Positions 24,017-60,223 of a DNA stretch of 64,000 bases are shown piece by piece; the first letter of the stretch is position 1; every line of letters starts with the position of its first letter. Below the pieces are notes generated by a model. That model had not been told where the DNA came from. It saw only the letters and a list, made by a program, of their open reading frames with translations, and searched no databases. The translations under genes were made by a program, and so were the position numbers. Origin of the DNA: an uncultured Christensenellaceae bacterium (lineage in GTDB: Bacteria > Bacillota > Clostridia > Christensenellales > Aristaeellaceae). The stretch spans positions 62,001 to 126,000 of the forward strand of contig CAJOJQ010000001.1 of the NCBI GenBank assembly GCA_905234985.1, in the 5' to 3' direction.

Positions 24017-24132
24017 CAGGTAGGAGGTAGGAAGTAGGAGGTAGGAGTTTTATCATGTTCAACAAAAACACTTGCTATCGCTTTTGTTGGACTATATATA
24101 CTTCCTACCTCCTACCTCCTACTTCCTACCTG
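24017..24132. repeat. Inverted heptamer-array element 1 (GTAGGAR family)
   Basis: Left arm 24017-24047 is four units of GTAGGAG/GTAGGAA; right arm 24101-24132 is the reverse complement of four such units in a different variant order. The 53-base centre contains an inner hairpin GTTCAACAAAA/CTTTTGTTGGAC. It lies between the convergent LysR and GH3 genes. Element at 60106 shares the heptamer. Confidence 0.9.
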
Positions 24133-24146
24133 ATTTTAAGTGTCCT

Positions 24147-26354
24147 TCAATCCTTGTCTGTCAGTGTGAAAAAAGCTGTGTTTTCCGTTGTGCTGTCCAG
24201 CCCGATCCACACCTGGAAGTCCCCCGGTTCGCTTTCCATGCGGCGGCTGATCGTCCAGAAGCGGAGCATGGGTTCCGTAATGGCAAAAACGACTTCCTTT
24301 TCTTCTCCGGGCCGGAGCGTGATTCGCCGGAAGCCCTTTAGTTCTTTGACCGGGCGCACGCGGCTGCCCACCAAATCCCGGATATAGAGCTGCAAAACGG
24401 CGGTCCCGGCCCGTTTTCCGGTATTGGTCAGGGTGACGGCGGCGGTGAGTTCGCCTGTTTTGGACAGGGTTTCACTGCTCAATCGAATTTCCGATACCCG
24501 GAAATCCGTATAGGTCAGGCCATAACCGAAGGAGTACAGGGCTTCGTTGGGGCAGTCCAGATAATGGGACGTAAAGCTGCCGATCCCCTCCCTGGGCCGG
24601 GGCCGTCCGGTCATGTACTGGTCGTAATGCAGCGGCTCCTGGCCCACGTGGCGGGGGAAGCTCATGGGCAGCTTGCCGGAAGGCGCTTCCTTGCCCGTGA
24701 GTACGTCCATCACGCCGTGGCCGCCCTCGGTGCCGGGGAGCCAGCAGATCATAAGGGCGTTCGACGCTTCGCTTTCCGCCTGCAGGGTCAAAGGCCGTCC
24801 GCAGAAAATCAGCGTCGTCAAGCGTTTGCACAGGGGCCGCAGGGCGTCCAGCAGCCGCTTTTGGGGCGCGGGCAAGCCGATATCCACCTTACTGGCGCTT
24901 TCGCCGGTTTGGAGACGATGCTCGCCCAAGCAAAGCACCACCGCATCCGCCCAGGCCGCCGCTTCCTTGGCTTCCGAAAGCAGGCGGGCGTTTTCCTGTT
25001 CCCAGTCCGGATGGGCAATCACTTCGATGGAAGTAAATGTTTTGTCCGCCAGCATCATACAGCCGGGGACACAGCGCGGCTCGACATCCTGCCCGAACGC
25101 TTCCTTCGCCGCCTGCCAGAGGGTAACGGTGTTCTCCGGATCAGCCGAAATAGCCCAGGCGCTCCGCAATTCCTTTTCATCGGCGTAGGGGCCGATGAAA
25201 GCGATTTTTCCGCCTTTCAGGGGAAGGGTTTCCTTTTCGTTTTTGAGCAGCACCAGGGATTCCGCCGCGGCCTTCCGGGCCAGTGCCCGATGCTCCGCAG
25301 CGCCTAACACGGCCTTCGCTTTTTCCGGGTCCGCGCCGTGGAAGGGGTCTTCAAACAGGCCCAGTTCGTTTTTCAGCCGCAGCACCCGCAGCACCGCCGC
25401 ATCCAGCATATCGAGGGAGACCTTTCCTTCCTCCACCAGCGCCTGCAAATGCTTTTCGTAGCAGCCGGAACACATGTCGATATCAATGCCCGCCCGCATA
25501 GCCAGCAGGGCGGCTTCTTTTTCGTCCTTGGCGATCCCGTGAGGCACCAGTTCCCCCACGGCGTTCCAGTCGGAAATCACAACCCCGTCAAAGCCCATTT
25601 CCTGCCGCAGCACCGTCTGCATGAGCCAGGGATTGGCGGAACTGGGCACGCCGTCCCAGGTGTTGAAGGAGGACATGACCAAGCGCGCCCCCGCTTCCAC
25701 CCCGCACTGATAGGCGGACAAATACTGCTCCCGCAGGGTATGCTCGGAAAGCTCTGTGTTTTGGTAATCTCGCCCCGCTTCCGCCGCACCGTAGGCGGCG
25801 AAGTGCTTCACGCAGGCGGCCACGGAATTCCCTTCTGTAAGGGTCTTCCCCTGGTAGCCCCGGGTCATGGCGGCGGCCATGCGGCCGTTCAGGTATTTGT
25901 CCTCCCCCGTAGATTCCATCACCCGGCCCCAGCGGGCGTCCCGGGAAAGGTCGGCCATGGGGGAAAAGGTGACGTGAATGCCGTCGGCGGCGGCTTCCCG
26001 GGCCTGCACAGCAGCGGCCCGCTCCGTCAGTTCCGGGTCGAAGGAAGCGCCCTGGCCCAAGGGGCAGGGAAACACGGTTTTGTGGCCGTGGATCACGTCA
26101 AGCATCATAAGCAGGGGGATATGATGGGGATGGTTTTCCATGTATTGCCGCTGCAGCCGATTCAGCTTTTCCGCGCCCCATATGCCCAATGTGCTGCCCG
26201 CTAAGCGCAGGGTGCGGGCCTTGGCCGTATCATTCAGCAGGCCGGTCACCGCCGCGCCGCTTTCATAGGCCACGCCGGGCAGCTGCACCAGCTGCATCAC
26301 CTTTTCCTCTAAGGACAGATCGTTCAGCAGGGCGGTCAATTCCTGTTCTTTCAT
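24147..26354 (-). CDS. Glycoside hydrolase family 3 (beta-glucosidase-like, BglX type)
   Basis: 735 residues, no signal peptide, so intracellular. Domain order: the (beta/alpha)8 domain with MLDVIHGHKTVFPCPLGQGASFD (about 95-117) and nucleophile aspartate in GFDGVVISDWNAVGE (about 265-280); the alpha/beta sandwich with AAAESLVLLKNEKETLPLKGG (about 370-390) and CLGEHRLQTGESASKVD; and a C-terminal fibronectin III-like domain. It likely trims beta-glucosides or other beta-linked oligosaccharides. The start is the ATG overlapping the fdhD stop (ATGA at 26351-26354), preceded by AAAGGAAAG. Confidence 0.93.
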   Translation of the reverse strand: MKEQELTALLNDLSLEEKVMQLVQLPGVAYESGAAVTGLLNDTAKARTLRLAGSTLGIWGAEKLNRLQRQYMENHPHHIPLLMMLDVIHGHKTVFPCPLGQGASFDPELTERAAAVQAREAAADGIHVTFSPMADLSRDARWGRVMESTGEDKYLNGRMAAAMTRGYQGKTLTEGNSVAACVKHFAAYGAAEAGRDYQNTELSEHTLREQYLSAYQCGVEAGARLVMSSFNTWDGVPSSANPWLMQTVLRQEMGFDGVVISDWNAVGELVPHGIAKDEKEAALLAMRAGIDIDMCSGCYEKHLQALVEEGKVSLDMLDAAVLRVLRLKNELGLFEDPFHGADPEKAKAVLGAAEHRALARKAAAESLVLLKNEKETLPLKGGKIAFIGPYADEKELRSAWAISADPENTVTLWQAAKEAFGQDVEPRCVPGCMMLADKTFTSIEVIAHPDWEQENARLLSEAKEAAAWADAVVLCLGEHRLQTGESASKVDIGLPAPQKRLLDALRPLCKRLTTLIFCGRPLTLQAESEASNALMICWLPGTEGGHGVMDVLTGKEAPSGKLPMSFPRHVGQEPLHYDQYMTGRPRPREGIGSFTSHYLDCPNEALYSFGYGLTYTDFRVSEIRLSSETLSKTGELTAAVTLTNTGKRAGTAVLQLYIRDLVGSRVRPVKELKGFRRITLRPGEEKEVVFAITEPMLRFWTISRRMESEPGDFQVWIGLDSTTENTAFFTLTDKD

Positions 26355-27076
26355 TTGTGTTCTTTCCTTTCCGTTCCGTCTGTCCATACCAGCAGGAAAC
26401 CGTTGGGCCGGAGGGTGACCAAGGTCACGCCCGCACGTTCTGCCAGCGCGATTCCTTCATTGGTGGGATAAGTTTTGGAGGCCATGAGGGGAATGCCCGC
26501 CCGGGCCGCTTTCAGTACCATATCGGCGGGCATGCGCCCAGTGGTGAAGAGATAACACTCCGCTCGGTCAATGCTCTGAATCAAGGCATAGCCTACGGCC
26601 TTATCAATGGCGTTGTGCCTGCCGACGTCTTCCCGGCAGCACAAAAGCTCGTCCCCCCGGCCCAAATAGCAGCCGTGAACCGCGTGGGTGCGGCTGTACA
26701 GCGGTTCTTCTCCCCGCATGCGCTCCGCCGCCCGGCGCAGCCAGCTTTCTTCCCAGGGCTGGGGCGTGATGGCAGGGAATTCCTGGGGCGCGGCGGGGCC
26801 GTTTGCCAGCGTCACGTCGGCCCGCAGGCCCCCTGCCCCGATTTCAATGGAGCGAATATCCTCCCTTTGCCGCGCCCATCCTTCCGTGACCAAATGCCCC
26901 GCCGCCAGCTCCGCCAAATGCTCCGGCGTACACACCATATGCAAGGCAAAGCGGTCGTCAATATATAAATCCATCTCGTGTTCCGAGGCGATTTCCACGG
27001 GAGCCGGGGCGTTCAGGGAGGCTGCACGCATAGCGCACGGCGGCAGGCCGGTTTCCGAACAGTCAACAATACGCAT
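26351..27076 (-). CDS. fdhD: FdhD-like formate dehydrogenase sulfurtransferase, without the CxxC
   Basis: 241 residues. FdhD passes sulfur from a cysteine desulfurase to the molybdenum/tungsten bis-MGD cofactor of formate dehydrogenase. The signatures EIASEHEMDLYIDDRFALHMV (about 28-50), EDVGRHNAIDKAVG (about 155-168) and FTTGRMPADMVLKAARAGIP are present. The CxxC loop of the E. coli enzyme (C121/C124) is not seen; the only nearby cysteines are in HAVHGCYL and ELLCCRED. No formate dehydrogenase gene is in the window. The ATG at 27074-27076 follows GAGAGGG. Confidence 0.85.
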   Translation of the reverse strand: MRIVDCSETGLPPCAMRAASLNAPAPVEIASEHEMDLYIDDRFALHMVCTPEHLAELAAGHLVTEGWARQREDIRSIEIGAGGLRADVTLANGPAAPQEFPAITPQPWEESWLRRAAERMRGEEPLYSRTHAVHGCYLGRGDELLCCREDVGRHNAIDKAVGYALIQSIDRAECYLFTTGRMPADMVLKAARAGIPLMASKTYPTNEGIALAERAGVTLVTLRPNGFLLVWTDGTERKEHK

Positions 27077-27094
27077 ATTTCCCTCTCGCTGAAT

Positions 27095-27200
27095 AAAAAG
27101 TGGAAATTGAAAAGTGAAAAGTGAAAATATGAATAGACGGCGCTTGGACTTAGCGAGACATGATAGAATTCCACTTTTCACTTTCCACTTTTCACTTTTG
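27095..27200. repeat. Inverted heptamer-array element 2 (RAAAGTG family)
   Basis: Left arm 27095-27128 runs AAAAGTG-GAAATTG-AAAAGTG-AAAAGTG; right arm 27167-27199 is the reverse complement of AAAAGTG-AAAAGTG-GAAAGTG-AAAAGTG-GAATT. The centre contains CGCT/AGCG. It lies between the XRE gene and fdhD, just upstream of the fdhD ribosome site. Confidence 0.88.
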
Positions 27201-27227
27201 AATGATTCGCCAAGTTTTGACTTACCG

Positions 27228-27743
27228 TTACTTCTTCCCCAGCCCCGTCAGCGCTTCCAGAGCGCCGCCCAGCAGGCTGCCCACCAGGCTGTCCGAGTCG
27301 CTGTCCTCCTGCACTTTCTTGGTGCCCTTGAGTACGGCTTCGGCGTCTTTCCGGGCGGCGCTGGTGGCCGCGCGGTACAGCTCCAGGAATTTCTTTTCCG
27401 TCGCGGTGAGCTTCACGCTGCTGTCGGTGGACGCGGTTTTTTTCGCGGCGGTGGACGCGGCGGGTTTCTTGGCGGTGGTGGACGCGGCGGGTTTCTTCGC
27501 GGTGGACGCGGCGGGCTTTGCAGCAGTGACCAGCCCCGCCGCTTCCAGCAGGGATTTCTGGGTGACGCCGCAGATTTTGGCGATGGCCTTTAATTCCGCA
27601 GCGGTCAGATCCTTTTCGCCCCGCTCCGCTTTGCTCAGCTCGGAGGCGGACAGCCCCTCGACCATTCCGGCCAGCTTTTCCTGACTCAGGCCCTTTTTGG
27701 TGCGGGCGTCTTTGATCAGTTCCCCAACCTTCTTCTGTGCCAT
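27228..27743 (-). CDS. XRE-family helix-turn-helix protein with Lys/Ala/Pro/Ser-rich repeats
   Basis: 171 residues. Residues 4-62 are a lambda-Cro-like HTH (ARTKKGLSQEKLAGMVEGLS, then KAERGEKDLTAAELKAIAK). Residues about 75-105 are tandem KKPAAST-like repeats (STAKKPAAST, TTAKKPAAST, AAKKTAST), histone-tail-like and basic. The rest is a helical region (KLTATEKKFLELYRAATSAARKDAEAVLKG). Target unknown; the basic repeats suggest extra nucleic acid contact. It sits between two heptamer-array elements. Confidence 0.85.
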   Translation of the reverse strand: MAQKKVGELIKDARTKKGLSQEKLAGMVEGLSASELSKAERGEKDLTAAELKAIAKICGVTQKSLLEAAGLVTAAKPAASTAKKPAASTTAKKPAASTAAKKTASTDSSVKLTATEKKFLELYRAATSAARKDAEAVLKGTKKVQEDSDSDSLVGSLLGGALEALTGLGKK

Positions 27744-27774
27744 ATGAAAACGCCTCTTTCCATTTTTTCTTTCA

Positions 27775-27802
27775 TCATACCACAGGGATGGCCTGAACGC
27801 AA
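27775..27802 (-). promoter_or_regulatory. Promoter of the XRE gene
   Basis: Minus-strand TTGCGT (27797-27802), 16 bases, TATGAT (27775-27780) preceded by TGG as an extended -10. Confidence 0.7.
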
Positions 27803-27815
27803 GGACACTTTAAGT

Positions 27816-27912
27816 AAAAAAAGTGGAAAGTGAAAAGTGAAAATTAGGATAGTCAGCGCTTTGATTGACGACCATTATTGAAGACTAAATGAAATATCAC
27901 TTTTCACTTTCT
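27816..27912. repeat. Inverted heptamer-array element 3 (RAAAGTG family)
   Basis: Left arm 27816-27845 holds AAAAGTG-GAAAGTG-AAAAGTG; right arm 27894-27912 is the reverse complement of GAAAGTG-AAAAGTG. It has the same heptamer as element 2 and lies on the other side of the XRE gene, downstream of the U32 gene. Confidence 0.82.
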
Positions 27913-27958
27913 GATTAAAAAATGTTCATTCATGCCTGCATTTATGCATCATGAACGT

Positions 27959-29182
27959 CTATCCCCTGTGGTTCCGGTTGGGTCCCCGCAGGAAATCCCC
28001 TTCCGCCGCGGGCGGCGAAGGAATCAGCACCCGCTGCCCGGCGATGGACACGGTATCCATCTGTTCGCCGGTATCGCAAAGGGTGATGCTTTCCACCGGG
28101 AAGGATACGGGTCCCTGGGGGCGCAGCAGATCCAGAAAATCGCCCACGTAAAAGCGGTTTTTTACGTGCAGGGTGGCGACGCCGTCTTTCCATTCCTCCA
28201 CCCGGGCCACGTACTCCATTTCCTGGGTGAACCCCGCCGCCCCGGACGCGGGCTGGGGCGCGCCGAAGTAAAAGCCGGTGTTGAAATCCCGATGGCTGGC
28301 CTTGCGCAGTTCCCCTTCCAATTCCGGCAGCAAAGCGCGGTACGCTTCCTCGCTTTCCTTGAAAGCGTCCAGCGCCCGGCGGTAAGCCCCCACCACGGTG
28401 GCGACGTAGTATTCCGTTTTCATGCGGCCCTCGATTTTGAGGCTGGCAACGCCCGCCCGAATCAGCTCCGGCAAATGGGACAGCATGTTCAGGTCGTAAG
28501 CGGACAAAAGATAGGTTCCCCGCCCGTCTTCTTCGATGGGCCAGTATTCGCCGGGACGCTTTTTCTCCACCAGGGCGTATTCCCACCGGCAGGGCTGGGC
28601 GCAGGCGCCCCGGTTGCCACCCCGGCCCGTCAGATGGTCGGACAGCATGCACCGGCCCGAATAGCTCATGCACATGGCCCCGTGCACGAAGGCCTCGATT
28701 TCCAGGGCGGGGGGCAGACTGTCCCGCAGGGCGGCGATGCGGGAAAGGGATAATTCCCGGGCCAGCACGATCCTCTCCGCCCCGTGTTCGTAATAGAACC
28801 GGGCGGCCTCGGCGTTCAGGGTGTTGGCCTGGGTGCTGATATGCAGCTTCAAATCCGGCGCTTCCCGCCGAAGAGCTAAAAACGCACCCAAATCGCTGAC
28901 CAGGGCCGCGTCCACGCCCAGCTCTCCGGCCCGGCGGGCCGTTTCGATCAGGGCGGGCAGTTCGTCCTCATAGGGCAGGATGTTCAGGGTGAGATAGAAT
29001 TTCTTCCCCTGCGCATGCACCAATGAAAGGGCCTGATTTAGTTCTTCCCAGGTAAAATTCCCCGCGAAGGCGCGAAGGCCAAAGGCTGGCAGCGCGCCGT
29101 AGACCGCGTCCGCCCCAAAGCGCAGCGCGGCCTTCAATTGGGCCATGCCCCCGGCGGGGGCCAGCAATTCCGGTAAAGCCAT
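27959..29182 (-). CDS. Peptidase U32 family protein (TrhP-like tRNA hydroxylation type)
   Basis: 407 residues. Starts ALPELLAPAGGMAQLKAALRFGADAVY and carries the U32 signature around FVHGAMCMSYSGRCMLSDHLTG and GGNRGACAQPCRWEY, whose four cysteines (about residues 175-207) are those linked to iron-sulfur binding in this group. Characterised relatives (TrhP/YegQ-like, RlhA) use prephenate to hydroxylate tRNA or 23S rRNA rather than acting as proteases, so RNA modification is the more likely role. The start at 29180-29182 follows TGGAGG; an upstream ATG at 29224 lacks one. Confidence 0.9.
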   Translation of the reverse strand: MALPELLAPAGGMAQLKAALRFGADAVYGALPAFGLRAFAGNFTWEELNQALSLVHAQGKKFYLTLNILPYEDELPALIETARRAGELGVDAALVSDLGAFLALRREAPDLKLHISTQANTLNAEAARFYYEHGAERIVLARELSLSRIAALRDSLPPALEIEAFVHGAMCMSYSGRCMLSDHLTGRGGNRGACAQPCRWEYALVEKKRPGEYWPIEEDGRGTYLLSAYDLNMLSHLPELIRAGVASLKIEGRMKTEYYVATVVGAYRRALDAFKESEEAYRALLPELEGELRKASHRDFNTGFYFGAPQPASGAAGFTQEMEYVARVEEWKDGVATLHVKNRFYVGDFLDLLRPQGPVSFPVESITLCDTGEQMDTVSIAGQRVLIPSPPAAEGDFLRGPNRNHRG

Positions 29183-29251
29183 GCTTTCCTCCAGGTTTCT
29201 GTTTTCAAGATCATGATAAAACACGAACCCGGGAAAAGCAAGCGGGAAAAA

Positions 29252-29491
29252 TCATTGCAGGCCGAAAAAACGCAGCAGGCTTTCCCACAGGGGCCAGACG
29301 AAAACCACTTTTGTTTCGTCCTCCGGGCTTTCCCCGTCCGCTTTTGCCAACAGCAAAGCGTCCCCGTACATCGCGCCCCACCAGGCGCGGTTTCCGGCCC
29401 CCGTCCGGCGATATTCTCCCAGCGCTCTGCCCGCCGTCCCCACGGCCAGCGTGAGGGCCAGCGTTCCCGCCGCAATCCGAAGCATCCGCAC
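29252..29491 (-). CDS. Small single-pass membrane protein, unknown
   Basis: 79 residues from a GTG (29489-29491) seven bases after GGAGGG. One hydrophobic helix near the N-terminus (LRIAAGTLALTLAVGTAG, about 4-21), then a short domain with NRAWWGAMYGDALLLAKADG and an end VFVWPLWESLLRFFGLQ that may lie on the membrane. No family recognised. It is divergent from the ECF sigma gene, so could belong to that stress response. Confidence 0.55.
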   Translation of the reverse strand: MRMLRIAAGTLALTLAVGTAGRALGEYRRTGAGNRAWWGAMYGDALLLAKADGESPEDETKVVFVWPLWESLLRFFGLQ

Positions 29492-29650
29492 AGGCGATCC
29501 CTCCTTCCATGCGTCAGCATGCCCGGAAGGAGGAAAAATATACCTTTTCAAAAGAGGAGCTTCGACGGAATTTTTTTGCGCGAAAAATTTCTTCATGTTG
29601 CGTTTTCCGTGCTATGCTGTGTCTAATGGATGAAAGGGGGCGAGGCTGCC

Positions 29651-30172
29651 GTGGAAACTGTCAAGGGCCCTGACAGCAAGGAAGAAAGAATGGCGCGCAT
29701 GGTGGCCCTGTACCAGCTTCCCCTGCTTCGGCTGTGCATCCTGTATCTGCACGATGAAGAGCTGGCGAAGGACGCTGTGCAGGAAACATTCGTTAAAGCC
29801 TATCGGAATTTGGATGGGTTCCGGGCGGAAGCAAGCGAAAAGACCTGGCTGACCCGCATCGCGGTGAACACCTGCAAGAACGTGTACCGGTCAGGCTGGT
29901 TCCGGCACGTGGATCGTTCGGTAACACTTGATATGATCGCGGAAAAGTTTTCATCCGCGAACGATGAAGACAACACGCTGACAGAAGCGATCATGCGCCT
30001 TCCCCGCAAACTGCGGGAAGCCGCCCTGCTCTGCTGGCTGCAAGGAATGACTTATGAGGAAGCCGCCGCGGCCTTAGGCATATCCCGCCAGGCCGTCGGC
30101 AGCCGGTTGAACCGCGCAAGACGAAAGCTGCGCTTTGCTTTGGAAGGAAGTGAAGAACATGACCCTGCATGA
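29651..30172 (+). CDS. ECF-type RNA polymerase sigma factor
   Basis: 173 residues. Region 2 appears as YLHDEELAKDAVQETFVKAYRNLDGF (about 35-60) and TWLTRIAVNTCKNVYR, region 4 as MTYEEAAAALGISRQAVGSRLNRARRKL (about 135-162). The GTG at 29651 is chosen because GGGGG lies ten bases upstream and nothing suitable precedes the ATG at 29630. Its end overlaps the next gene by 14 bases, the standard sigma/anti-sigma coupling. Confidence 0.93.
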   Translation: METVKGPDSKEERMARMVALYQLPLLRLCILYLHDEELAKDAVQETFVKAYRNLDGFRAEASEKTWLTRIAVNTCKNVYRSGWFRHVDRSVTLDMIAEKFSSANDEDNTLTEAIMRLPRKLREAALLCWLQGMTYEEAAAALGISRQAVGSRLNRARRKLRFALEGSEEHDPA

Positions 30173-31952: not shown

Positions 31953-31965
31953 ACTGCAAACGGCA

Positions 31966-32003: not shown

Positions 32004-32013
32004 CTTGTCAGTA

Positions 32014-43570: not shown

Positions 43571-43678
43571 GAGGAGAGTTTAGAGTTGAGAATTGAGATG
43601 ATATAGTGTCCACAACAGGGAGCCAAAGTTGGTCAACTATATAAATCTCAACTCTCAACGCTTCACTCTCAACTCTCT
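43571..43678. repeat. Inverted heptamer-array element 5 (GAGAGTT family)
   Basis: Left arm 43571-43605 includes GAGAGTT-TAGAGTT-GAGAATT-GAGATGA; right arm 43638-43678 is the reverse complement of GAGAGTT-GAGAGTG-AAGCGTT-GAGAGTT-GAGATTT. The centre has AGTT/AACT. It lies between the helicase stop and the EamA start. A 9-bp direct repeat CCAACAATT follows at 43681. Confidence 0.85.
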
Positions 43679-51678: not shown

Positions 51679-51706
51679 ACAACGGCAGCAAGTTTGGCCG
51701 TTTCCC

Positions 51707-51818: not shown

Positions 51819-51835
51819 CCCGTAAATCCTGCTGT

Positions 51836-52387: not shown

Positions 52388-52391
52388 TGCC

Positions 52392-52673
52392 TTATCCCCG
52401 GAAATTCCATGCCAGCAGCGCCAGCACGATCACCTGGAGCGCCAGCAGCAGCGGGAAAAACAGCTTGAAATACCAGTGCTTGGTCTTGTGGCGGCATAAA
52501 ACCATCCCTAATACACCGCCCAAGCCCCCGAAGCAGGCCGTGGCGAGAAACAGGGTCTTTTCCGGCACACGCCATTTGCCCGCTTTCGCACATTTCTTGT
52601 CATAGGCCATCAGGCCGAAGGAAAGCGCGTTCAGCGCCGCCAGCACGATGGCTATGATCACATACAGGTTCAT
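52392..52673 (-). CDS. DUF1294 membrane protein
   Basis: 93 residues with three membrane helices. YDKKCAKAGKWRVPEKTLFLATACFGGLGGVLGM and CRHKTKHWYFK match the DUF1294 pattern (K-x-x-A, RVPE, GG-x-G, RHKT-x-H). Function unknown. It is five bases upstream of the kinase-like gene and probably in its operon. Confidence 0.85.
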   Translation of the reverse strand: MNLYVIIAIVLAALNALSFGLMAYDKKCAKAGKWRVPEKTLFLATACFGGLGGVLGMVLCRHKTKHWYFKLFFPLLLALQVIVLALLAWNFRG

Positions 52674-52716
52674 TGAGTAAGCACCTCTCCCGTCGTTCGA
52701 TATTGATGATCGGTTC

Positions 52717-53346
52717 TCAGAATCCCAGGGAATCGTTGACCAGGATCACATGCATCCTGTCCTTGTGCCGGGAATACCGCGTCATCAAAAACTGGCAGCA
52801 AATGGTGTCCGGAGATTTGCAGTCCATGCACGCGCCGGTCTTGGCGCAGGGGGTGGACAGGCCGAAGCGTTGGGCGTTGATGGGCGCGGCCACGTTCCTG
52901 GCCCGTTTCATGGCGCTGTCCACGTCGTTGCAGACCTTGTTCATGCCCACGATGAAGATCACTTTTTTCGGTCCCTGGGCGATGGCGGACACGCGGTTGG
53001 AGTTTCCGTCGATATTGATCATGACCCCGTCTTCCGTGATGGCGTTAGCGCTGGACAGAAACACGTCCGCGTCGTAGGCCATGAGCATAGCTGCCCGTTT
53101 GTCTTCGCAGGCGTCCCGATCAATGAAATTGTATTTGCCGTTTTTCAGCACGTCCACCAGGCCGATTTCATGGGCGCTCATGGCCCCGCCCATGGTGACG
53201 GTGCTTCCTTCCGGGATCAGCGAAAGGGCCAGTTTCAGCGCTTCTTCTTTGGACGGGGCGTAGTACCCGGTCATGTTCCGGGACTGAAGGCCCTTGATCA
53301 CTTTCTGCGCCAGCAGCTCGTTCCGTTTGAAGATGTTTTCGTTCAT
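52717..53346 (-). CDS. LUD-domain protein (LutC/YkgG-like)
   Basis: 209 residues. ALSLIPEGSTVTMGGAMSAHEIGLVDVL (about 42-68), ADVFLSSANAITEDGVMINIDGNSNRVSAIAQGPKKVIF and a cysteine-bearing end TPCAKTGACMDCKSPDTICC. LUD domains occur in LutC of lactate oxidation, but free-standing clostridial members are of unknown role. The C-terminal cysteines could bind metal. The M42 peptidase lies 24 bases upstream, so they are likely co-transcribed. Confidence 0.88.
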   Translation of the reverse strand: MNENIFKRNELLAQKVIKGLQSRNMTGYYAPSKEEALKLALSLIPEGSTVTMGGAMSAHEIGLVDVLKNGKYNFIDRDACEDKRAAMLMAYDADVFLSSANAITEDGVMINIDGNSNRVSAIAQGPKKVIFIVGMNKVCNDVDSAMKRARNVAAPINAQRFGLSTPCAKTGACMDCKSPDTICCQFLMTRYSRHKDRMHVILVNDSLGF

Positions 53347-53370
53347 GATGCTCCTCCCCGTTCCTGTTTT

Positions 53371-54417
53371 TTATAATGCAAACGCGATCAGCAGACGCAG
53401 CGTGTTTTCCGCGCCGTCCCGGTGGCTTCTCTCGTAGCCGTGGGAAGCGTATACGCCCGCGCCGATCAGCCCATGCTGCAGGTCGTTGCCCGCACGGAGC
53501 GTCGCTTCCACGTCGCTGCCGTAATGCGGATAGATATCCACCGCGTAATCCGCTCCGCAAGCCTTGGCTGCTTCGATCAGCCTTTTGACCATGGAATAGC
53601 TGTACGGCCCGTGGCTGTCCTTGGCGCAGATGGAAACCTGCTTCTCCGTACACTGCAGGCCTTCGCCGACGCACCCCATATCCACGGAAATCGCTTCCGT
53701 GCATCCCGCGGGAACGCTGCCGGAGCCGCCGTGCCCCACCTCTTCATACACCGTGATATGGGCGTAAAGTGCGCGCTTGGGCACGATTTTTTCATCCCGG
53801 ATATATTTCGCAAGCCCCAGCAGGATGCCCACGCTCAGCTTGTCATCCAGGAAACGGGACTTGATGTAGCCGGATTTCGTGATCCGCACGTTCGGCTCAA
53901 AGCACACGATATCCCCCGCGGCGACGCCGAGCTTTTCGGTATCTTCCTTGTTTTTTACGTCCTCGTCCAGAACGACCTCGCAGGTATCCCAATCCCGTTT
54001 GATGTTGTTGTATTCGCCGTTCACATGGATGGAAGCGTTGCAGAGCTGGAAAGTGCCTTCATAAACGCCGCTGAACTTTGTGACCACGCGAACGTTTTCC
54101 GTTTCGGCATTGTTGGGGTTCATGCCGCCTAAGTTGGTGAGCCGGAGGTGGCCGTTTCCTTTGATTTCCGCGACCATCCCGCCCAGCGTATCCAAATGCG
54201 CTTCCAGCAGCAGGCCGTTTTCCCCGTCGCCGCCGCCGAAGGAAACGAGAACCCCGCCTTTGTTGGTCAGGGTTGCTTCAAAGCCTAACTTTTCAAACTC
54301 GCGCTTCACCCAGGCAGCCGCGTCTTCCGTATACCCTGTGGGAGAATCAATGTTCAGAAGCGTTTCCGTTTCTTTTACCAGAAAATCCGTGTATTGCTTC
54401 AAATTGATCTTTTCCAT
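53371..54417 (-). CDS. M42-family metallopeptidase (glutamyl aminopeptidase-like)
   Basis: 348 residues. Zinc ligands appear in LLLEAHLDTLGGMV (H, D, about 70-83), KSRFLDDKLSVG (D, about 178-189), YEEVGHGG (EE, about 219-226), ISVDMGC (D) and the final HGYERSH. These are the M42/FrvX motifs of tetrahedral aminopeptidases that trim peptides in the cytoplasm. GGAAAGGAAAC precedes the ATG at 54415-54417. It forms a pair with the LUD gene. Confidence 0.92.
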   Translation of the reverse strand: MEKINLKQYTDFLVKETETLLNIDSPTGYTEDAAAWVKREFEKLGFEATLTNKGGVLVSFGGGDGENGLLLEAHLDTLGGMVAEIKGNGHLRLTNLGGMNPNNAETENVRVVTKFSGVYEGTFQLCNASIHVNGEYNNIKRDWDTCEVVLDEDVKNKEDTEKLGVAAGDIVCFEPNVRITKSGYIKSRFLDDKLSVGILLGLAKYIRDEKIVPKRALYAHITVYEEVGHGGSGSVPAGCTEAISVDMGCVGEGLQCTEKQVSICAKDSHGPYSYSMVKRLIEAAKACGADYAVDIYPHYGSDVEATLRAGNDLQHGLIGAGVYASHGYERSHRDGAENTLRLLIAFAL

Positions 54418-54540
54418 GCCCGTTTCCTTTCCGCGATCAAAAGCATTTCGCGCTGTATCGCATGATTGATATTCGCCCAAAAATCAAAAAATCCTGTAAA
54501 CAGAAAACGCCAGCCCTGCATCAAGGTTGGCGTTTATGGG

Positions 54541-54616
54541 TGGCACCCCCAATGGGATTCGAACCCATGTTTCCGCCTTGAGAGGGCGGCGTCCTAGGCC
54601 TCTAGACAATGGAGGC
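54541..54616 (-). tRNA. tRNA-Glu (CTC)
   Basis: 76 nt on the minus strand. Acceptor GCCTCCA pairs with TGGGGGT (one T-G and one G-T), anticodon arm CCGCC-CTCTCAA-GGCGG gives CTC, T-arm contains GGTTCGAATCC, and CCA is encoded. It lies 4 bases after tRNA-Gln in the same transcript. Confidence 0.95.
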
Positions 54617-54620
54617 AAAA

Positions 54621-54694
54621 TGGCTGGGGAACAAGGATTTGAACCTTGACAATACGAGTCAGAGTCGTAGGTGCTGCCGTTACACCATTCCCCA
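54621..54694 (-). tRNA. tRNA-Gln (CTG)
   Basis: 74 nt on the minus strand. Acceptor TGGGGAA with TTCCCCA, anticodon arm TACGA-CTCTGAC-TCGTA gives CTG, T-arm GGTTCAAATCC, CCA encoded. Confidence 0.95.
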
Positions 54695-54733
54695 ATACCA
54701 GCGACAGAGGGCATTTCCTCAACCGCGAAAGTA

Positions 54734-54762
54734 ATCATACTACAATTTCCGCTCCCTGTCAA
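54734..54762 (-). promoter_or_regulatory. tRNA promoter
   Basis: Minus-strand TTGACA (54757-54762), 17 bases, TATGAT (54734-54739), 40 bases upstream of tRNA-Gln. Confidence 0.88.
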
Positions 54763-54827
54763 GCATTTTTTTAAAGTTTTTCAGGCAAATTTCTTCCAAA
54801 AATTGCCATTCCATGATAACGTTTTGC

Positions 54828-54856
54828 TTGAAAAAAAGCGGGGGCCTTTGTATAAT
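54828..54856 (+). promoter_or_regulatory. Promoter of the third MATE gene
   Basis: TTGAAA (54828-54833), 17 bases, TATAAT (54851-54856), 31 bases before the start. Confidence 0.85.
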
Positions 54857-54887
54857 AAAGGCGCCGGAGGGCAAAGGGGGCGTCGTG

Positions 54888-56255
54888 ATGCGAAGCATTC
54901 GCCGGCGGCTGGAGAGCCTGCTCGCCTCGGATCAATTCACGTATCCGGAACTGCGGAAAATGTTTTTGACCCTGCTGCTGGATCAGTTTTTTATTTTCTT
55001 TATCGGGCTTTTGTCCACCATGCTGGTGTCGCGCCTTGGCGAGGCGGCCATGGCGGCGGTGTCCCTTGTGGGCACGGTGAACGGCATGGTGTCGCTGCTG
55101 TTCACCTCCCTGGCGACCGGCGGAGCCATCGCGGTGGCCCGGACCAAGGGCAGGGGAGACGCCGTTGAGATCCGCCACGCCATCGGCGAGGTGACGGGGG
55201 TGTGCTTCACGGTGGCGCTGGTGCTGGGATCGGCCCTGTATTTCGGGGCGGACGCGGTGGTACAGCTGCTGTACCCGGACGTGGAGCCGCTGGTGACCGA
55301 TTACGCCGTGCGCTATATGCGCATGATGTGCATCTCCTTCATTCCCTTTTCCGTTTTCAACGCCATTTTTAATATTTTCCGCAATTTGGGCGATACAAAA
55401 TCCAGCCTGCTGCTCACCATCGTGATCAACGTGGCCCACCTGCTGCTGAGCCTGCTGTTCATCAACGGCATGGGGTTAGGCGTGATGGGATCGGGCCTGA
55501 GCTACATCGTGGCCCGGGTGATCGGCATGGGGCTGGCGATGATCTGGCTGCTGGCGGTGCATAACACCTATGAGGTGCGCTTCTGGCATTTCTTCCACTT
55601 TAATCCCCAGGCCACCCGGGATATTTTCGCCTTAGGCATGCCCCTGGCCCTGGAATCCCTGCTTTTGCAGGGCGGCATGCTGATCGTGAATATTTATTTA
55701 GCGAAGCTGTCCACCATGGAAATGGCGGCCCACGCCCGGGCCAACGCCATCATCAGCCTGTACAACACCACCGCCGGGGCCATTACCGCCCTGACCAGCA
55801 CGGTCTGCGGCCAGTGCTACGGCGCGAAGAAGTACGACATGACCCTGACCTATGGCCGGAACCTGATCCGCGCGGGACGCTTCGCCATGGCGGCCACCTC
55901 CCTGATCCTGTACCCCTTAACGCCGCTGCTGCTGGCCATGTACGGCGTGCCCCCGGAAAGCACGGGCATGATTTACGTGGCCCTGGCCATCGCCGCCGTG
56001 GGCATGCCCCTCTTCGCCGTGGACAGCAACGTGACCGCCATGGTGCTGCGCGTGGCGGGGGACGGGGTGTTCACCGGGGCCTGCGCCGTCGCCGCCCTGG
56101 CCCTGGGCCGCTGCCTGTTGGGCTATATCCTCACCATCCCCATGGGCATGGGCGTGCCGGGCATCTGGATCGCTCTGGCCTTTGAATGGCTGCTGCGCAC
56201 CGTGGTTCAGCGCCTGCGCCTGCGGGGCAGCGCGTGGCTGCACAGGAAAGAATGA
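54888..56255 (+). CDS. MATE-family exporter (third copy)
   Basis: 455 residues, about 12 membrane helices. A cationic start (RSIRRRLESLLAS) leads to MFLTLLLDQFFIFFIGLLSTMLVSRLGEAAMAAVS; ARTKGRGDAVEIRHAIGEVTG follows the second helix pair, and LTSTVCGQCYGAKKYD is the C-half motif. The ATG at 54888 follows AAAGGGGGC; a GTG one codon earlier is possible. Monocistronic, with terminator at 56261. Confidence 0.9.
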   Translation: MRSIRRRLESLLASDQFTYPELRKMFLTLLLDQFFIFFIGLLSTMLVSRLGEAAMAAVSLVGTVNGMVSLLFTSLATGGAIAVARTKGRGDAVEIRHAIGEVTGVCFTVALVLGSALYFGADAVVQLLYPDVEPLVTDYAVRYMRMMCISFIPFSVFNAIFNIFRNLGDTKSSLLLTIVINVAHLLLSLLFINGMGLGVMGSGLSYIVARVIGMGLAMIWLLAVHNTYEVRFWHFFHFNPQATRDIFALGMPLALESLLLQGGMLIVNIYLAKLSTMEMAAHARANAIISLYNTTAGAITALTSTVCGQCYGAKKYDMTLTYGRNLIRAGRFAMAATSLILYPLTPLLLAMYGVPPESTGMIYVALAIAAVGMPLFAVDSNVTAMVLRVAGDGVFTGACAVAALALGRCLLGYILTIPMGMGVPGIWIALAFEWLLRTVVQRLRLRGSAWLHRKE

Positions 56256-56260
56256 AAAAT

Positions 56261-56315
56261 GTAAAAGTCACGTACCACCGACTCAGCCGGTGGTACGCGG
56301 CTTTTACACTTTTTT
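56261..56315. terminator. Bidirectional terminator between MATE and trmO
   Basis: GTAAAAG-CACGTACCACCG (from 56261) pairs with CGGTGGTACG-CTTTTAC (to 56306), then CACTTTTTT. It overlaps the trmO end. Confidence 0.85.
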
Positions 56316-56981
56316 ATATATGATTTCTTTGACCGTCAGCGTATTCTCCCGCACGGAAAACCGGACGTCCATGCCGCCATAGGCCATGCCGTACACCCTG
56401 TCCGGGTCGTTCTGGTAGGAGGGGCGGGGATCCTGGGCCAAAATTTCCAATAGAGCCTGCCGCTGGGCCTCGGGAATGCGGGAAAGCAGCGCCGGGGCAC
56501 AGTCTACTTGCAGCAGCCGTTCCCATTCACTGGCCGCGAAGCCCCCTTTCGCCTCCGGATGGCTGTCGGCATAGGGCAGGTAAGGCTTGATATCGAAAAT
56601 GGGCGTGCCGTTCATGAGGTCTGCCCCGCTTACGATCAGTACCGGGCCGTCCTCGGCGTGGGGCTGGATTTCCACTAATTTCACACAGGAAAGCCCGATG
56701 GGATTGGGCCGGAAGGGGGAACGGGTGGCGAACACCCCCATGCGGGTATTGCCCCCAAGGCGCGGCGGGCGCACGGTGGGAGACCAGTCTTCCCGCTTGG
56801 CTTCGGAAAATTCCCAAATCAGCCACAGGTGGGAAAAATCCTCCATGCCCCGCAAAGCGTCGGCATTGCGGTATTCCGGCTCGAACACCACGCGGGACAG
56901 GGCGGAGGGGGCCAGCCCGCTTTGCCGGGGAATGCCGAACTTGGAGGAAAAATCGTTCTGGATGCGGGCGATGATCTTCAC
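56304..56981 (-). CDS. trmO: tRNA t6A37 N6-methyltransferase (TsaA/TrmO family)
   Basis: 225 residues. The TsaA-like beta-barrel with ARIQNDFSSKFGIPRQSGLA, FEPEYRNADALRGMEDFSHLWLIWEF (about 33-58), GVFATRSPFRPNPIGLS (about 82-98) and FDIKPYLPYADS (about 128-139). TrmO uses S-adenosylmethionine to methylate t6A at position 37 of tRNA-Thr. It ends three bases before the G1P-dehydrogenase-like gene in transcription order, so they form an operon with that gene first. Confidence 0.93.
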   Translation of the reverse strand: MKIIARIQNDFSSKFGIPRQSGLAPSALSRVVFEPEYRNADALRGMEDFSHLWLIWEFSEAKREDWSPTVRPPRLGGNTRMGVFATRSPFRPNPIGLSCVKLVEIQPHAEDGPVLIVSGADLMNGTPIFDIKPYLPYADSHPEAKGGFAASEWERLLQVDCAPALLSRIPEAQRQALLEILAQDPRPSYQNDPDRVYGMAYGGMDVRFSVRENTLTVKEIIYKKV

Positions 56982-56984
56982 GCC

Positions 56985-58352
56985 TTATTCCTCCGCCACC
57001 TGGGCCAAATATTCCGCGAATTCGTCCGTCAGGCCCAAATCCCACAGCACGGAGCAGCACATGTATTTGAGCCGAGCGTCCCGGGCCCCAACGAAGGCGT
57101 TCACCGTGTCTTCTACGGAAATGTCGATGTCGGAGGGCTTCACGGGCATACCGGTGCTTTTCATGAGGGAAAGCAGGGCCTTTTCGTCGGGCAGTTCCTC
57201 GTTGACGGCGGCCAAAATGCCGTCCCAGTGGTTCAGGATGCGGTTCAGCCGTTCTTCGTGGGCGGCGGGGTCGTTCTTCCGGCCCTTGCGCTCCATTGCA
57301 ATGATTTCCGGTGCGGTCTTGCCGAAAATGCGCCGGATTTGGGCTTCCCATTTTTCTTTCGTCATGGCCTGCCAGTATGCTTCCGCCTGGGTCCGGTTCG
57401 GGGTGATTTCCCGGAACTTGCGGTACAGCTTCAGCATCATGGCCGTGCCGACGCCCACCTGGATGCCGTGCAGGTCGTAGGGCTGATTCCGCTCCAAAGC
57501 CATCATTTCCCACATATGGCTGAAATAATGCTCCGTGCCGGAGGCGGGGCGGGAAATTTCCGCGTAGGCCATAGCAATGCCGGAAATCACCAGGCCCTCG
57601 GCGATGGACTGAATGGCCTCGGGCTTCCTGTCCGGGATGCCCGCCGCCGCGTCCACCACGCGCTTGAGCGCCGCCCGCATGAGTACGGCCACGGCCTCGC
57701 AGTAATATTCGCCGGTGACGATATGGCTCATGCGCCATTCGCACAGGGCGATATATTTGGCCAGCATGTCCCCGAGGCCCGCCCACAGCATGCGCATGGG
57801 GGCCTGGGCCAGAATTTCGGTGTCCAAAATCATGCCCTTGGGGGCGCGGTTGAACAGGGTCATTTTCACATGGTTGATTTCCATGGCGGAGGAATTGGAG
57901 GCGTAGCCGTCCATGCTGGGGGCGGTGCCGATGATGGCGCTCTTTTTGCCCAGGGCGTTGCCCACCACCTTGCAAATGTCGTTGATGACGCCGCTGCCCA
58001 CGCCCAAGATCAAATCGCAGGCTGGGTCGTAATGCATCATCACGCTGCCCACCTCCCACTCCGCCGGGGCGATCTTCTGCCCGGCGCAGGGAATCACGTA
58101 CAGCTGATGCTTAATGCCCGCCGCGGTCAGCAGTTCGTCCACTCGCTTTCCGGCGGCTTCATAGGTGTTTTTGTCGCACACAATAAAGGGCTTTTCGCAT
58201 CCCATGGCCCGCACCATGTCCGGCGCTTTCGTGATAGCCCCCGGCCCGATCTCCAGAAAATCCATGGCGCAGGCGTGATGCTTCCCGCATTCGCAGTCAT
58301 AGCCCTCCGGGCGAATCAGTTCCTGTAAGGTCATTTCGTCAAAACGGAGCAT
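56985..58352 (-). CDS. sn-glycerol-1-phosphate dehydrogenase family protein (AraM/EgsA-like)
   Basis: 455 residues. Nucleotide-binding LILGVGSGVINDICKVVG (about 113-130) and the metal site region IGTAPSMDGYASNSSAM, plus SGTEHYFSHMWEM with two histidines near 270, are those of iron/nickel-dependent glycerol-1-phosphate dehydrogenases. B. subtilis AraM makes G1P for an archaeal-type lipid (with PcrB) and lies in the arabinose operon. No pcrB is seen here, but a sugar kinase gene is divergent, so a sugar-alcohol phosphate may be the true substrate. GGGAGG precedes the ATG. Confidence 0.88.
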   Translation of the reverse strand: MLRFDEMTLQELIRPEGYDCECGKHHACAMDFLEIGPGAITKAPDMVRAMGCEKPFIVCDKNTYEAAGKRVDELLTAAGIKHQLYVIPCAGQKIAPAEWEVGSVMMHYDPACDLILGVGSGVINDICKVVGNALGKKSAIIGTAPSMDGYASNSSAMEINHVKMTLFNRAPKGMILDTEILAQAPMRMLWAGLGDMLAKYIALCEWRMSHIVTGEYYCEAVAVLMRAALKRVVDAAAGIPDRKPEAIQSIAEGLVISGIAMAYAEISRPASGTEHYFSHMWEMMALERNQPYDLHGIQVGVGTAMMLKLYRKFREITPNRTQAEAYWQAMTKEKWEAQIRRIFGKTAPEIIAMERKGRKNDPAAHEERLNRILNHWDGILAAVNEELPDEKALLSLMKSTGMPVKPSDIDISVEDTVNAFVGARDARLKYMCCSVLWDLGLTDEFAEYLAQVAEE

Positions 58353-58386
58353 TGAAGCCGCCTCCCTGCGTTTGTTTACAAGAAAA

Positions 58387-58414
58387 ATTATATCATAACT
58401 GGCCGGGCCGTCAA
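58387..58414 (-). promoter_or_regulatory. Promoter of the AraM-like/trmO operon
   Basis: Minus-strand TTGACG (58409-58414), 16 bases, TATAAT (58387-58392) with a TGA extension. Confidence 0.8.
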
Positions 58415-58495
58415 GGATAATTCATTTGGAACAGATAGCGAAAACAGAGCGCAAAATCTGCATAAAAAAACGATATAAAATGTTTTGCGTTTTTC

Positions 58496-58524
58496 TTGCA
58501 TTTTTGGCTTTTTTCAACTACAAT
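58496..58524 (+). promoter_or_regulatory. Promoter of the sugar kinase operon
   Basis: TTGCAT (58496-58501), 17 bases, TACAAT (58519-58524), 42 bases before the kinase start. Confidence 0.75.
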
Positions 58525-58566
58525 AGAGGTAATCGTTTCCCCAGGATTTTTTACGAAGGGAGCAGG

Positions 58567-60099
58567 ATGAAGTTGCAATATCTGATTGGCGTGGATTTGG
58601 GCACCTCGGGTACCAAAACCGTGTTGTTTGACGTACACGGCAAGGAAATCGCCTCCGCCCTGGAGGAATATCCGCTGTATCAGCCCTATAACGGCTGGGC
58701 GGAGCAGGAGCCGGAGGACTGGTGGAACGCGGCGGTGAACACCATCAAAGCCGTGATCTTGAAGAGCAAAGTAAATCCGAAGGATATCGCGGGTCTGTCC
58801 CTGTCCGGGCAGATGCACGGCCTGGTGCTGACGGACGATAACGGCAAGGCCCTGGGCCGGTCCATCATCTGGTGCGATAACCGCACCATCGAAAGCTGCG
58901 AAGAGTTCACCCATTTGGTGGGCGGCAGGGAGCGGCTGATCCAAATCAGCGCCAATCCCGCCCTGACCGGCTTCACCGCCGGGAAAATCCTGTGGGTGCG
59001 CAAAAACCAGCCCGAAATCTGGGAAAAGGCGCGCCACATCCAGCTGCCCAAGGATTACGTGCGCTTGAAGCTCACCGGCGTATACCATATGGAAATGAGC
59101 GACGCCTCCGGCACCAACCTGCTGGACGTGCCGCGCCGCTGCTGGAGCGAAGAAATCTGCGAAAAGACCGGCATCCCCATGAGCATGCTGCCCCCCCTGG
59201 TGGAGAGCAGCGACGTGGCGGGCCATATCACCGAGGAAGCCGCCAAGCTCACCGGCTTGCCCGTAGGCATGCCCGTGGCCGCCGGTGCGGGCGACAACAT
59301 GGCCGCCGCCATCGGCACCGGCGTGGTGTGCGAGGGCAAAGCCTTTACCACCATCGGCACCAGCGGCGTGATCTTCGCCCATTCCAATTCCGTGCAGATC
59401 GACCCCGCGGGCCGGGTACACACCTTCTGCGCCGCCGTGCCGGGCTGCTACGTGGTCATGGGCGTGGGCCTGGCCGCGGGCCTCAGCCTCAAATGGTGCC
59501 GGGATCAGTTCTTCCAGGCCGAAATTGAGGTCGCCAAGGAAATGGGCACCGATTCCTACGTACTCATGAACCAGGAAGCGGCCCGCAGCCCCATCGGGGC
59601 CAACCGGCTGATCTACCTGCCTTACCTCATGGGCGAGCGCAGCCCCATCCTGGACCCCGAAAGCAGGGGCGTGCTGTTCGGCCTTTCCGCCATGCACACC
59701 AAGAAGGACATCGTGCGGGCGGTCATGGAAGGCGTTATGTACTCCCAGTGGCACAACCTGAACGTGCTGCGGGGCATGCACGTGGCCCCCAACGCCATGC
59801 TGGCCTGCGGCGGCGGCGCGAAATCTCCCTTCTGGCGGCAGATGATGGCGGATATGTACAACATGCCCGTTTCCACTTTGCAGAACACCGAAGGCCCGGC
59901 CTTAGGCGCAGCCATCTTAGCGGGCGTGGGCGCTGGCATCTATAAGGACGTGCCCTCCGCCTGCAAGGAACTGCTCAGGGAGAGCGAACCCCTCCTGCCC
60001 GACGCGGACCGTCACGCCGCCTACGAACCCTTCTTCGACCTGTACCAGAAGATTTATTTGGACCTCAAGGACGAGTTCCATACCCTGGCGCAGCTGTAA
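58567..60099 (+). CDS. xylB: FGGY-family carbohydrate kinase (xylulokinase-like)
   Basis: 510 residues. GVDLGTSGTKTVLFD (about 8-22) binds ATP; GLSLSGQMHGLVLTD (about 78-92) is the xylulokinase-type sugar loop; IIWCDNRT follows; the catalytic aspartate lies in GAGDNMAAAIG (about 241-251); and the C-terminal ATPase motif is ACGGGAKSPFWRQMMADMYN (about 416-435). Usual XylB length. It phosphorylates a ketopentose or related ketose; with a FucI-family isomerase downstream, the substrate could be that enzyme's product (for example a 6-deoxyketose or pentulose). GGGAG is four to eight bases before the ATG. Confidence 0.9.
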   Translation: MKLQYLIGVDLGTSGTKTVLFDVHGKEIASALEEYPLYQPYNGWAEQEPEDWWNAAVNTIKAVILKSKVNPKDIAGLSLSGQMHGLVLTDDNGKALGRSIIWCDNRTIESCEEFTHLVGGRERLIQISANPALTGFTAGKILWVRKNQPEIWEKARHIQLPKDYVRLKLTGVYHMEMSDASGTNLLDVPRRCWSEEICEKTGIPMSMLPPLVESSDVAGHITEEAAKLTGLPVGMPVAAGAGDNMAAAIGTGVVCEGKAFTTIGTSGVIFAHSNSVQIDPAGRVHTFCAAVPGCYVVMGVGLAAGLSLKWCRDQFFQAEIEVAKEMGTDSYVLMNQEAARSPIGANRLIYLPYLMGERSPILDPESRGVLFGLSAMHTKKDIVRAVMEGVMYSQWHNLNVLRGMHVAPNAMLACGGGAKSPFWRQMMADMYNMPVSTLQNTEGPALGAAILAGVGAGIYKDVPSACKELLRESEPLLPDADRHAAYEPFFDLYQKIYLDLKDEFHTLAQL

Positions 60100-60105
60100 A
60101 AAATC

Positions 60106-60223
60106 AAGGTAGGAAGTGGAAGGTAGGAGGTTTATATAGCTGGATAAAGAGAGAAACCCAGCGCTGCACGAAAATGTAAAGCAAAACAAAACCTCCTACC
60201 TCCTACTTCCTACCTCCTACTTC
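60106..60223. repeat. Inverted heptamer-array element 4 (GTAGGAR family)
   Basis: Left arm 60106-60133: GTAGGAA-GTGGAAG-GTAGGAG-GTTT. Right arm 60189-60223: reverse complement of GTAGGAG-GTAGGAA-GTAGGAG-GTAGGAG-GTTT. The centre contains GCTGG/CCAGC. It begins just after the kinase stop and ends just before the DUF4867 ribosome site. Confidence 0.9.

Follow-up and report, generated by a model that had tools for sequence, protein, structure and literature searches.

Inverted arrays of seven-nucleotide words form dispersed gene-end hairpins that differ in family between related Clostridia genomes

Introduction

Bacterial miniature inverted-repeat transposable elements (MITEs) are short and non-autonomous and have inverted ends, and in cyanobacteria there are tandem heptamer arrays (short tandemly repeated repetitive sequences, STRR) with small hairpin elements, the small dispersed repeats, inside them. 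Arrays of heptamers are on record from distant bacteria, and no cause for them has been accepted. Here we have analysed a stretch of 64,000 nucleotides (the window; C1:62001-126000 on contig CAJOJQ010000001.1) from the 3.57 Mb draft genome of an uncultured Christensenellaceae bacterium (GCA_905234985.1), whose closest named relatives are rumen and gut Clostridia metagenome-assembled genomes. It holds five intergenic elements, numbered 1 to 5, in which two arrays of purine-rich 7-nt units face each other in inverse orientation across a short centre. These are members of a large dispersed set of hairpin repeats built from 7-nt words, and related species often carry a different-word version at a given spot.

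The closest described architecture comes from another phylum. The parts of Rehm et al. (2015; PMC4692102) that treat such repeats report inverted pairs of GGGAATC heptamer arrays near gene ends, 70 and 75 of them in two Xanthomonas genomes. The GGGAATC and GGGGA(C/T)T repeats of Xanthomonas and Nostoc are there said to consist mostly of four units, to be intergenic and to lie near the 5' neighbouring open reading frame (ORF); those of Xanthomonas keep their gene context in sister species (83%) with varied length and sequence, and few of them stand between divergent genes. One G-rich unit was studied per genome, and the repeats were read as G-quadruplex candidates. According to the relevant sections of MacGregor (2015; PMC4679880), the TAACTGA repeats of Beggiatoaceae, cyanobacteria and Bacteroidetes form abundant intergenic heptamer arrays that are direct, made of one unit and, in the Beggiatoa genome, mostly placed before start codons, with one inverted case there. 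REPINs, in the corresponding sections of Bertels and Rainey (2011; PMC3116915), are non-autonomous, extragenic, high-copy hairpins with inverted conserved ends and a variable centre.

The elements described here resemble the Xanthomonas and Nostoc repeats, as published, in architecture: the arrays are intergenic, comprise roughly four units each (the median of 280 arms is 30 nt) and form inverted pairs. They depart from what those sections cover in three ways: a single genome has five or six unit types at least, the elements carry a border motif, and sister species can hold different families at one slot. Their consensus units GTAGGAR, GAGAGTT and RAAAGTG also lack the GGG of the published units, although the variant GGGAGTT, present in many GAGAGTT arms, contains it. 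With the TAACTGA repeats they share abundance and an intergenic place, but the present arrays are inverted, of several units and mostly situated after stop codons. Like REPINs, they have two inverted conserved ends, a variable spacer, an extragenic place and many copies; unlike REPINs, their ends are tandem heptamers instead of repetitive extragenic palindromic (REP) sequences, and no Y1 transposase was found in the four element-rich genomes discussed below. In the five folded elements the purine-rich arms pair with each other and not with themselves, and the imperfect-palindrome trait of REP sequences is absent. The MITE traits of short length, inverted terminal repeats and many copies are present; neither a parent transposon nor a target-site duplication was recognised at the sites and in the sequence compared. 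Membership of a known repeat family, raised in the earlier note on this DNA, is thus borne out in part, by the inverted heptamer pairs of Xanthomonas. The present elements are a new, multi-family variant of that architecture; in the open-licence literature we found no report of these families, of their shared border or of several heptamer families replacing each other.

Results

A large set of hairpins with a period of seven

All five elements proved to lie where the earlier note had placed them and to belong to the families it had named. Element 1 (24017-24132; left array about 24018-24047, right array 24099-24131) and element 5 (60106-60223; degenerate left array about 60109-60131, right array 60191-60220) are of the GTAGGAR family, elements 2 (27095-27200; arrays 27097-27127 and 27172-27199) and 3 (27816-27912; arrays 27819-27843 and about 27896-27911) of the RAAAGTG family, and element 4 (43571-43678; arrays 43574-43598 and 43646-43677) of the GAGAGTT family. 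Each folds as a long hairpin and outfolds 200 of 200 dinucleotide shuffles, with z values for elements 1 to 5 of -11.34, -5.42, -4.45, -6.14 and -8.24 as RNA and -10.51, -5.67, -4.23, -5.55 and -7.39 as DNA. At a score threshold of 30, Tandem Repeats Finder detects the period-7 arrays of elements 1, 2 and 4 on both sides but those of elements 3 and 5 on one side only, the second array there being visible but more degenerate. The folds of elements 1 and 2, and inspection by eye, show a small inner hairpin (within the centre at about 24057-24092, and as a short stem at about 27141-27155). An Rfam scan of the window (4227 families, gathering score) returned two tRNAs only and matched none of the elements.

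The period scan that the earlier note had proposed has been applied to 464,000 bases, made up of the window and 20 stretches of its genome, over periods 4 to 15 and with an inverted partner allowed within 150 bases. Inverted array pairs numbered 23 at period 7, and not one was seen at periods 4-6 or 8-15 or in shuffled sequence (a single first-order shuffle of each sequence). Single arrays are equally common at other periods (76 at period 7 against 74, 76, 102 and 59 at periods 6, 9, 12 and 15), those at the multiples of 3 probably being derived from coding sequence, so that period 7 is marked by inverted pairing and not by the number of arrays.

With a looser finder we recovered at least 77 elements in 848,957 bases of this genome (34 GAGAGTT, 22 GTAGGAR, 14 RAAAGTG, 3 CAGAGTN, 1 AGTGTGG and 3 others, one of which is element 4 of the window) and at least 63 in 603,343 bases of the sister genome G025. 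Because many stretches were picked for holding copies (20 of 40 in our genome, and 20 of 40 in two large fetches from G025), these counts are not densities, and because the pair finder misses degenerate copies, such as element 5 with its worn left arm, they are lower bounds. At least three further unit types exist besides the three main ones (CAGAGTN, AGTGTGG and an AGATAGG/AGAGAGG type). Dispersed copies match across both arms and centre, the full-length ones being about 70-88% identical.

Different families at the same orthologous slots

Comparison of orthologous intergenic regions, another check that the earlier note had suggested, shows that the family at a given slot often differs. Within the limits of usable flanks and of the G025 sequence compared, 21 of 76 elements of our genome could be placed in G025, where the slot holds the same family in 12 cases, a weak copy of the same family in one, a different family in seven and nothing in one. 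In the reverse direction 26 of 58 G025 elements were placed, with 11 same, 7 different (the same seven slots) and 8 empty. Nine elements placed in G010 met a different family three times and an empty slot six times. Among the ten placed in G003, four were scored different, two same, two weak and two empty; one of the four (L094 9770, score 18) shows no element by eye and is not relied on.

In the 87 orthologous gaps compared between our genome and G025, 11 hold the same family, 6 different families, 1 an element in our genome only, 9 an element in G025 only and 60 neither. With the 11 same-family gaps left out, co-occupancy by different families is well above independence (odds ratio 40, P = 1.4e-4). 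Two of the G025-only rows are mis-scored: at L084 3757 an RAAAGTG element of our genome straddles the edge of the gap, and at L108 16522 the ORF pick hides a GAGAGTT element of the same family. The counts are left as printed, and correction would strengthen the association.

The slots of elements 1 to 3 in the window show the same. At the place orthologous to that of element 1, the relative RUG10975 (L120) has an AGTGTGG-family element; the orthologous gap of element 2 in G025 (L334) has a GTAGGAR element; that of element 3 has a GAGAGTT element in G003 and no heptamer element in G010. Slot L108 2726 holds GTAGGAR, GAGAGTT, RAAAGTG and nothing in four species. At L075 4835, G025 and G010 share a homologous intergenic frame in which one and the same spot is taken by different elements; our genome has lost this gap. 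Such switches swap the heptamer and, by eye, the centre too, and copies of the same family at orthologous slots vary in their units and length. Sites where two or more families form a mosaic were seen at L304, L336, L348 and L235. The sister species offer a direct record of whole hairpins of different unit families at the same gene-end slots, and a caution: intergenic hairpins common to several species need not have been inherited in place.

Arms, inner border and centre

In the common build, each of the two inverted arms has about 4 to 4.5 heptamers and is followed inwards by a border of about 11 nt; some 50-57 nt separate the arrays, borders included, and the centre often contains a small hairpin. 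Median element length is 112 bp, and 115 of 280 arms measure 30-32 nt, enough for four units plus a few bases. The inner border approximates to TTTATATAGTC inside one arm, and inside the other arm to the inverse of this sequence or something close to it (GACTATATAAA, ACATGATAAA); elements 4 and 5 have GATATAGTG...CAACTATATAAA and TTTATATAGC, respectively. The border is evident in GTAGGAR, GAGAGTT and CAGAGTN copies and less clear in RAAAGTG copies. At no more than one mismatch, TTTATATAGTC occurs 83 times in 1.45 Mb, with 61 matches inside detected elements, 11 by eye in elements that the finder missed or cut, and 11 elsewhere, so that elements account for most of the matches (72 of 83). Over the first 14 inner bases the similarity between families is only modest (6.7-7.2 of 14 against 6.3-6.5 in shuffles), and the notion of a shared border therefore rests mainly on the motif count. 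The earlier note had seen one build made from unrelated units. The strict 7-nt period, the pairing arms and the common build all stand, but an unrelated origin is not supported: the families share border, arm length and position.

Centres are more alike within families than between them. With borders removed, 133 of 140 elements were long enough for comparison; strong pairs (score at least 24) number 64 of 2733 within families against 5 of 6045 between, and the mean score is 11.95 within against 10.70 between, a within-family value reached in none of 1000 label shuffles. The effect is clear for GTAGGAR (13.88 against 10.94), 41 of whose centres align with recurring borders, and smaller for RAAAGTG (11.76 against 10.42).

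The two arms of one hairpin are no more alike than arms taken from different elements: on a scale of 26, similarity within and between elements is 21.46 and 22.19 for GTAGGAR, 20.94 and 20.88 for GAGAGTT, and 20.33 and 21.02 for RAAAGTG, the within-element value being significantly the lower in two of the three families. This agrees with the earlier note's view that a single recent inversion did not produce the arms, and it rules out arm-to-arm copying inside a hairpin; the absence of homogenisation suggests that arms are inherited from a family pool. The idea that left and right ends are two distinct conserved sequences, which would explain this deficit, was rejected, as the differences are weak once the elements have been oriented by their centres.

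Two outer motifs also recur. Of 12 matches to the first, near AAAGRACRCTTTAA, 9 adjoin an element, as do 8 of 14 matches to the second, near GCATGAAT...GGGATTT. Either may stand on one side of an element or on both, and neither is tied to a single family; GGACACTTTAAGT at 27803-27815 precedes element 3 as such an outer motif. Flank-to-flank pairing exceeds chance for only a few elements (score at least 16 in 11 of 134 against 6.2 expected, at least 20 in 5 against 1.2), and we have rejected as a general rule the idea that every element is nested in an older outer palindrome. The GCATGAAT...GGGATTT motif encloses GC-rich inserts as well. A GC-rich repeat of about 300-460 bp (L094 8031-8495, L099 19677-20000) has many matches in all three sister genomes, and its L094 copy, like an insert in L332, is bounded by a CGCATGAAT...GGGATTTG flank that also encloses heptamer elements.

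Position beside genes

The elements sit mostly just after stop codons. Of 140 elements, 17 fall inside a mechanical ORF pick; for the rest the median distance to ORF 3' ends is 7.5 bp (132 distances) and to 5' ends 38.5 bp (96 distances). Among gaps of at least 100 bp, elements occupy 23 of the 107 that are convergent, 58 of the 277 that are co-directional and 13 of the 102 that are divergent. The scarcity between divergent genes that the relevant part of the Xanthomonas account reports falls short of significance here (13 of 102 against 81 of 384, P = 0.066). Position suggests a role of the hairpins at transcript ends, in termination or 3'-end protection. A simple terminator scan of 22000-30000, which allows loops of 3-8 only and is blind to the elements themselves, found 15 sites (shuffles give 10.6), none of them in the gaps of elements 1 to 3. 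A T-rich tail (5 or more T within 8 bases just past an arm, on either strand) accompanies 62 of 140 elements, a count without a control. Orientation relative to gene direction (sense to antisense 21:9 for GAGAGTT, 13:6 for RAAAGTG and 11:11 for GTAGGAR) is too weak to be of use.

Distribution among relatives and viral contigs

The GTAGGAR family is a patchy burst among genomes. An exact 20-nt, three-unit pattern, whose overlapping hits count several per element, was sought in 60 genomes: there were 189 hits in our genome, 320 in G025, 65 in G019, 32 in G006 and 44 in G034 (another genus), 4 in G013, 2 in G023 and one each in G003, G009 and G010. The other 50 had none, and the reversed control gave 0. 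Relatives also use other units, such as AGGGAWT (L111), ATTCGGA (L112) and AGTGTGG (L120). With the U32 peptidase / TrhP-like ORF of the window as an anchor for finding relatives, inverted pairs of period 7 were seen at 3 of 80 U32-gene loci and pairs of periods 5, 6 or 8-12 at none. Four of 20 further stretches from relatives hold an inverted period-7 pair, including the stacked arrays of G034 (L235 19615-19855), where at least four heptamer types on one side (GCATTAC, CTCCTCA, CTCTCCA, CTACCTC) are partly mirrored on the opposite side.

Elements also occur on viral contigs. In L389 a GTAGGAR element (4124-4250) lies in the head-gene module, between the terminase and portal genes, and this contig is a possible carrier of the element between species; in L443 another, with border ACTATATAAA, begins 3 bp past a 262-aa ORF. 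Heptamer patterns picked out 56 viral loci, of which 11 have an inverted pair and 45 have none. A search of a plasmid collection with element 1 and of a phage collection with element 4 gave no match. The GC-rich viral contigs L418, L424 (with four) and L440 carry inverted heptamer pairs with other centres, which suggests that the heptamer-hairpin build is wider than this genus.

Discussion

We regard it as somewhat probable that the elements are several families of short non-autonomous mobile hairpins of about 110 bp, MITE- or REPIN-like, that turn over at gene-end sites. A putative trans-acting machine would copy or move the whole hairpin, arms and centre together, and would probably read the inner border and the 7-nt periodic stem instead of the exact unit. 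Insertion would fall mostly just past stop codons, often where another such element had sat, and over time families would displace one another at fixed gene-end slots, earlier ones losing out to later. The hairpins would spread within and between related genomes, and one in place may serve as a transcript 3' hairpin (termination or 3'-end protection), some element there being tolerated or favoured. Transposition, recognition of the border and the transcript-end role are what we infer. The earlier note had offered either a function of periodicity and pairing or a copying mechanism; copying fits best, and a transcript-end function is suggested by place. More boldly, these might represent mobile hairpins of a widespread class, with a fixed period, unit number and core but a freely changing unit, moved by a machine that senses the periodicity of the stem; families with different units would compete for fixed gene-end sockets and displace one another there, across phyla and phages. 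We advance this tentatively, as an unlikely reading. Two questions become testable through the sister species: why 7 nt, and what copies the hairpins.

Several observations weigh against mobile hairpin families. Neither an enzyme nor an autonomous copy was found; among the unpaired arrays and border motifs no autonomous relative was recognised by eye in about 1.45 Mb, a whole genome not having been searched. No target-site duplication is readable, there being no clean empty site and the flanks being too diverged or deleted. The mixed arms of L235, L304, L336 and L348 also allow recombination or slippage. GAGAGTT centres are barely more alike among themselves than with others (11.14 against 10.65), so that heptamer and centre are not one fixed unit in that family; together with the common T-rich tails this diversity slightly weakens the case for mobility and slightly raises those for selection at gene ends and for target preference. 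The slot comparison has small numbers and mechanical ORF picks, and some of its stretches were chosen for holding copies. In restricted sets of longer gaps its association is weaker (P = 0.002 and 0.004); thus the 47 gaps of at least 60 bp between co-directional or convergent ORFs comprise 6 with different families, 1 and 7 with a single element, 10 with the same family and 23 with neither (P = 0.004). Swapping could also reflect loss followed by independent insertion at preferred gene ends.

This last point leads to target preference without replacement, in which families insert independently at the same class of gene-end site and apparent swaps are insertion plus loss. The gene-end preference itself and the weaker association in the longer co-directional and convergent gaps speak for it, but the elements of G025 and G010 at the very same spot of one homologous frame (L075 4835) and the mosaic sites, with one family beside or inside another, speak against it, and we judge it quite improbable. 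More weight, though still that of an unlikely explanation, belongs to the proposal that these are gene-end hairpins under selection, terminators or protectors of mRNA 3' ends, whose arrays change by polymerase slippage and unequal recombination. It would account for the way the elements hug stop codons, for element 1 standing alone between convergent ORFs with no simple terminator-like site in the gaps of elements 1 to 3, for the T-rich stretches if they have a terminator role, for the occupation in G025 of 20 of the 21 placed slots, and for orthologous copies of one family that differ in units and length. This proposal sits badly with switches that replace the heptamer and, by eye, the centre, with the loss of an entire intergenic region from our genome at L075 4835, with the empty slots met by G025 elements in our genome and by ours in G010, and with the patchiness of the GTAGGAR family.

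Two further mechanisms fare poorly. Plain 7-nt tandem repeats made by polymerase slippage, their inverted pairing due to chance rearrangement, would agree with the over-representation of heptamers among longer simple sequence repeats in many bacteria, as the pertinent parts of PMC4692102 and PMC4679880 have it, and with the 45 viral loci that have no inverted pair. This appears quite improbable given the tight arm length, the conserved border motif and GTAGGAR centres, the restriction of inverted pairs to period 7, and families that are dispersed and alike along their full length. REPINs moved by a RAYT, a Y1 transposase of the IS200/IS605-like kind and the established motor for the build that is most alike, would match the two inverted conserved ends, variable centre, length of about 110 bp, extragenic place and high copy number, and one family even contains GTAG. 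The arms, however, are tandem heptamers and not palindromes, the GAGAGTT and RAAAGTG units have no GTAG, and Y1_Tnp (PF01797) has 0 matches in our genome, G025, G019 and G006, four GTAGGAR-rich genomes of one genus that are 86-95% complete; in the same search 10 of 29 genomes of the genus and 5 of 14 control genomes do match. RAYT/IS200 mobilisation has accordingly been rejected for these genomes, and the explanation is largely refuted and very improbable.

Neighbouring genes and other repeats

Element 1 is the sole occupant of the gap between two convergent ORFs with stops at 24014 and 24147: a LysR-like regulator on the plus strand (23136-24014; matches below curated cut-offs) ends 2 bp before it, and the stop of a BglX-type beta-glucosidase on the minus strand (24147-26387; 690 bits, cut-off 666) lies 14 bp past it. 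The U32 peptidase / TrhP-like ORF (27959-29224, minus strand; match below cut-off) adjoins element 3, and its protein is 94% identical to the counterpart in Clostridia bacterium RGIG3310. Element 5 follows closely on an ORF ending at 60099.

Other repeats were met along the way. Three of about 60-75 bp in L075 (18882-18952, 10461-10529 and 14294-14353) have many matches in G025, G003 and G010, the first of them on both strands, and an abundant repeat of about 160 bp (L108 15906-16068) has tens of matches in the sister genomes.

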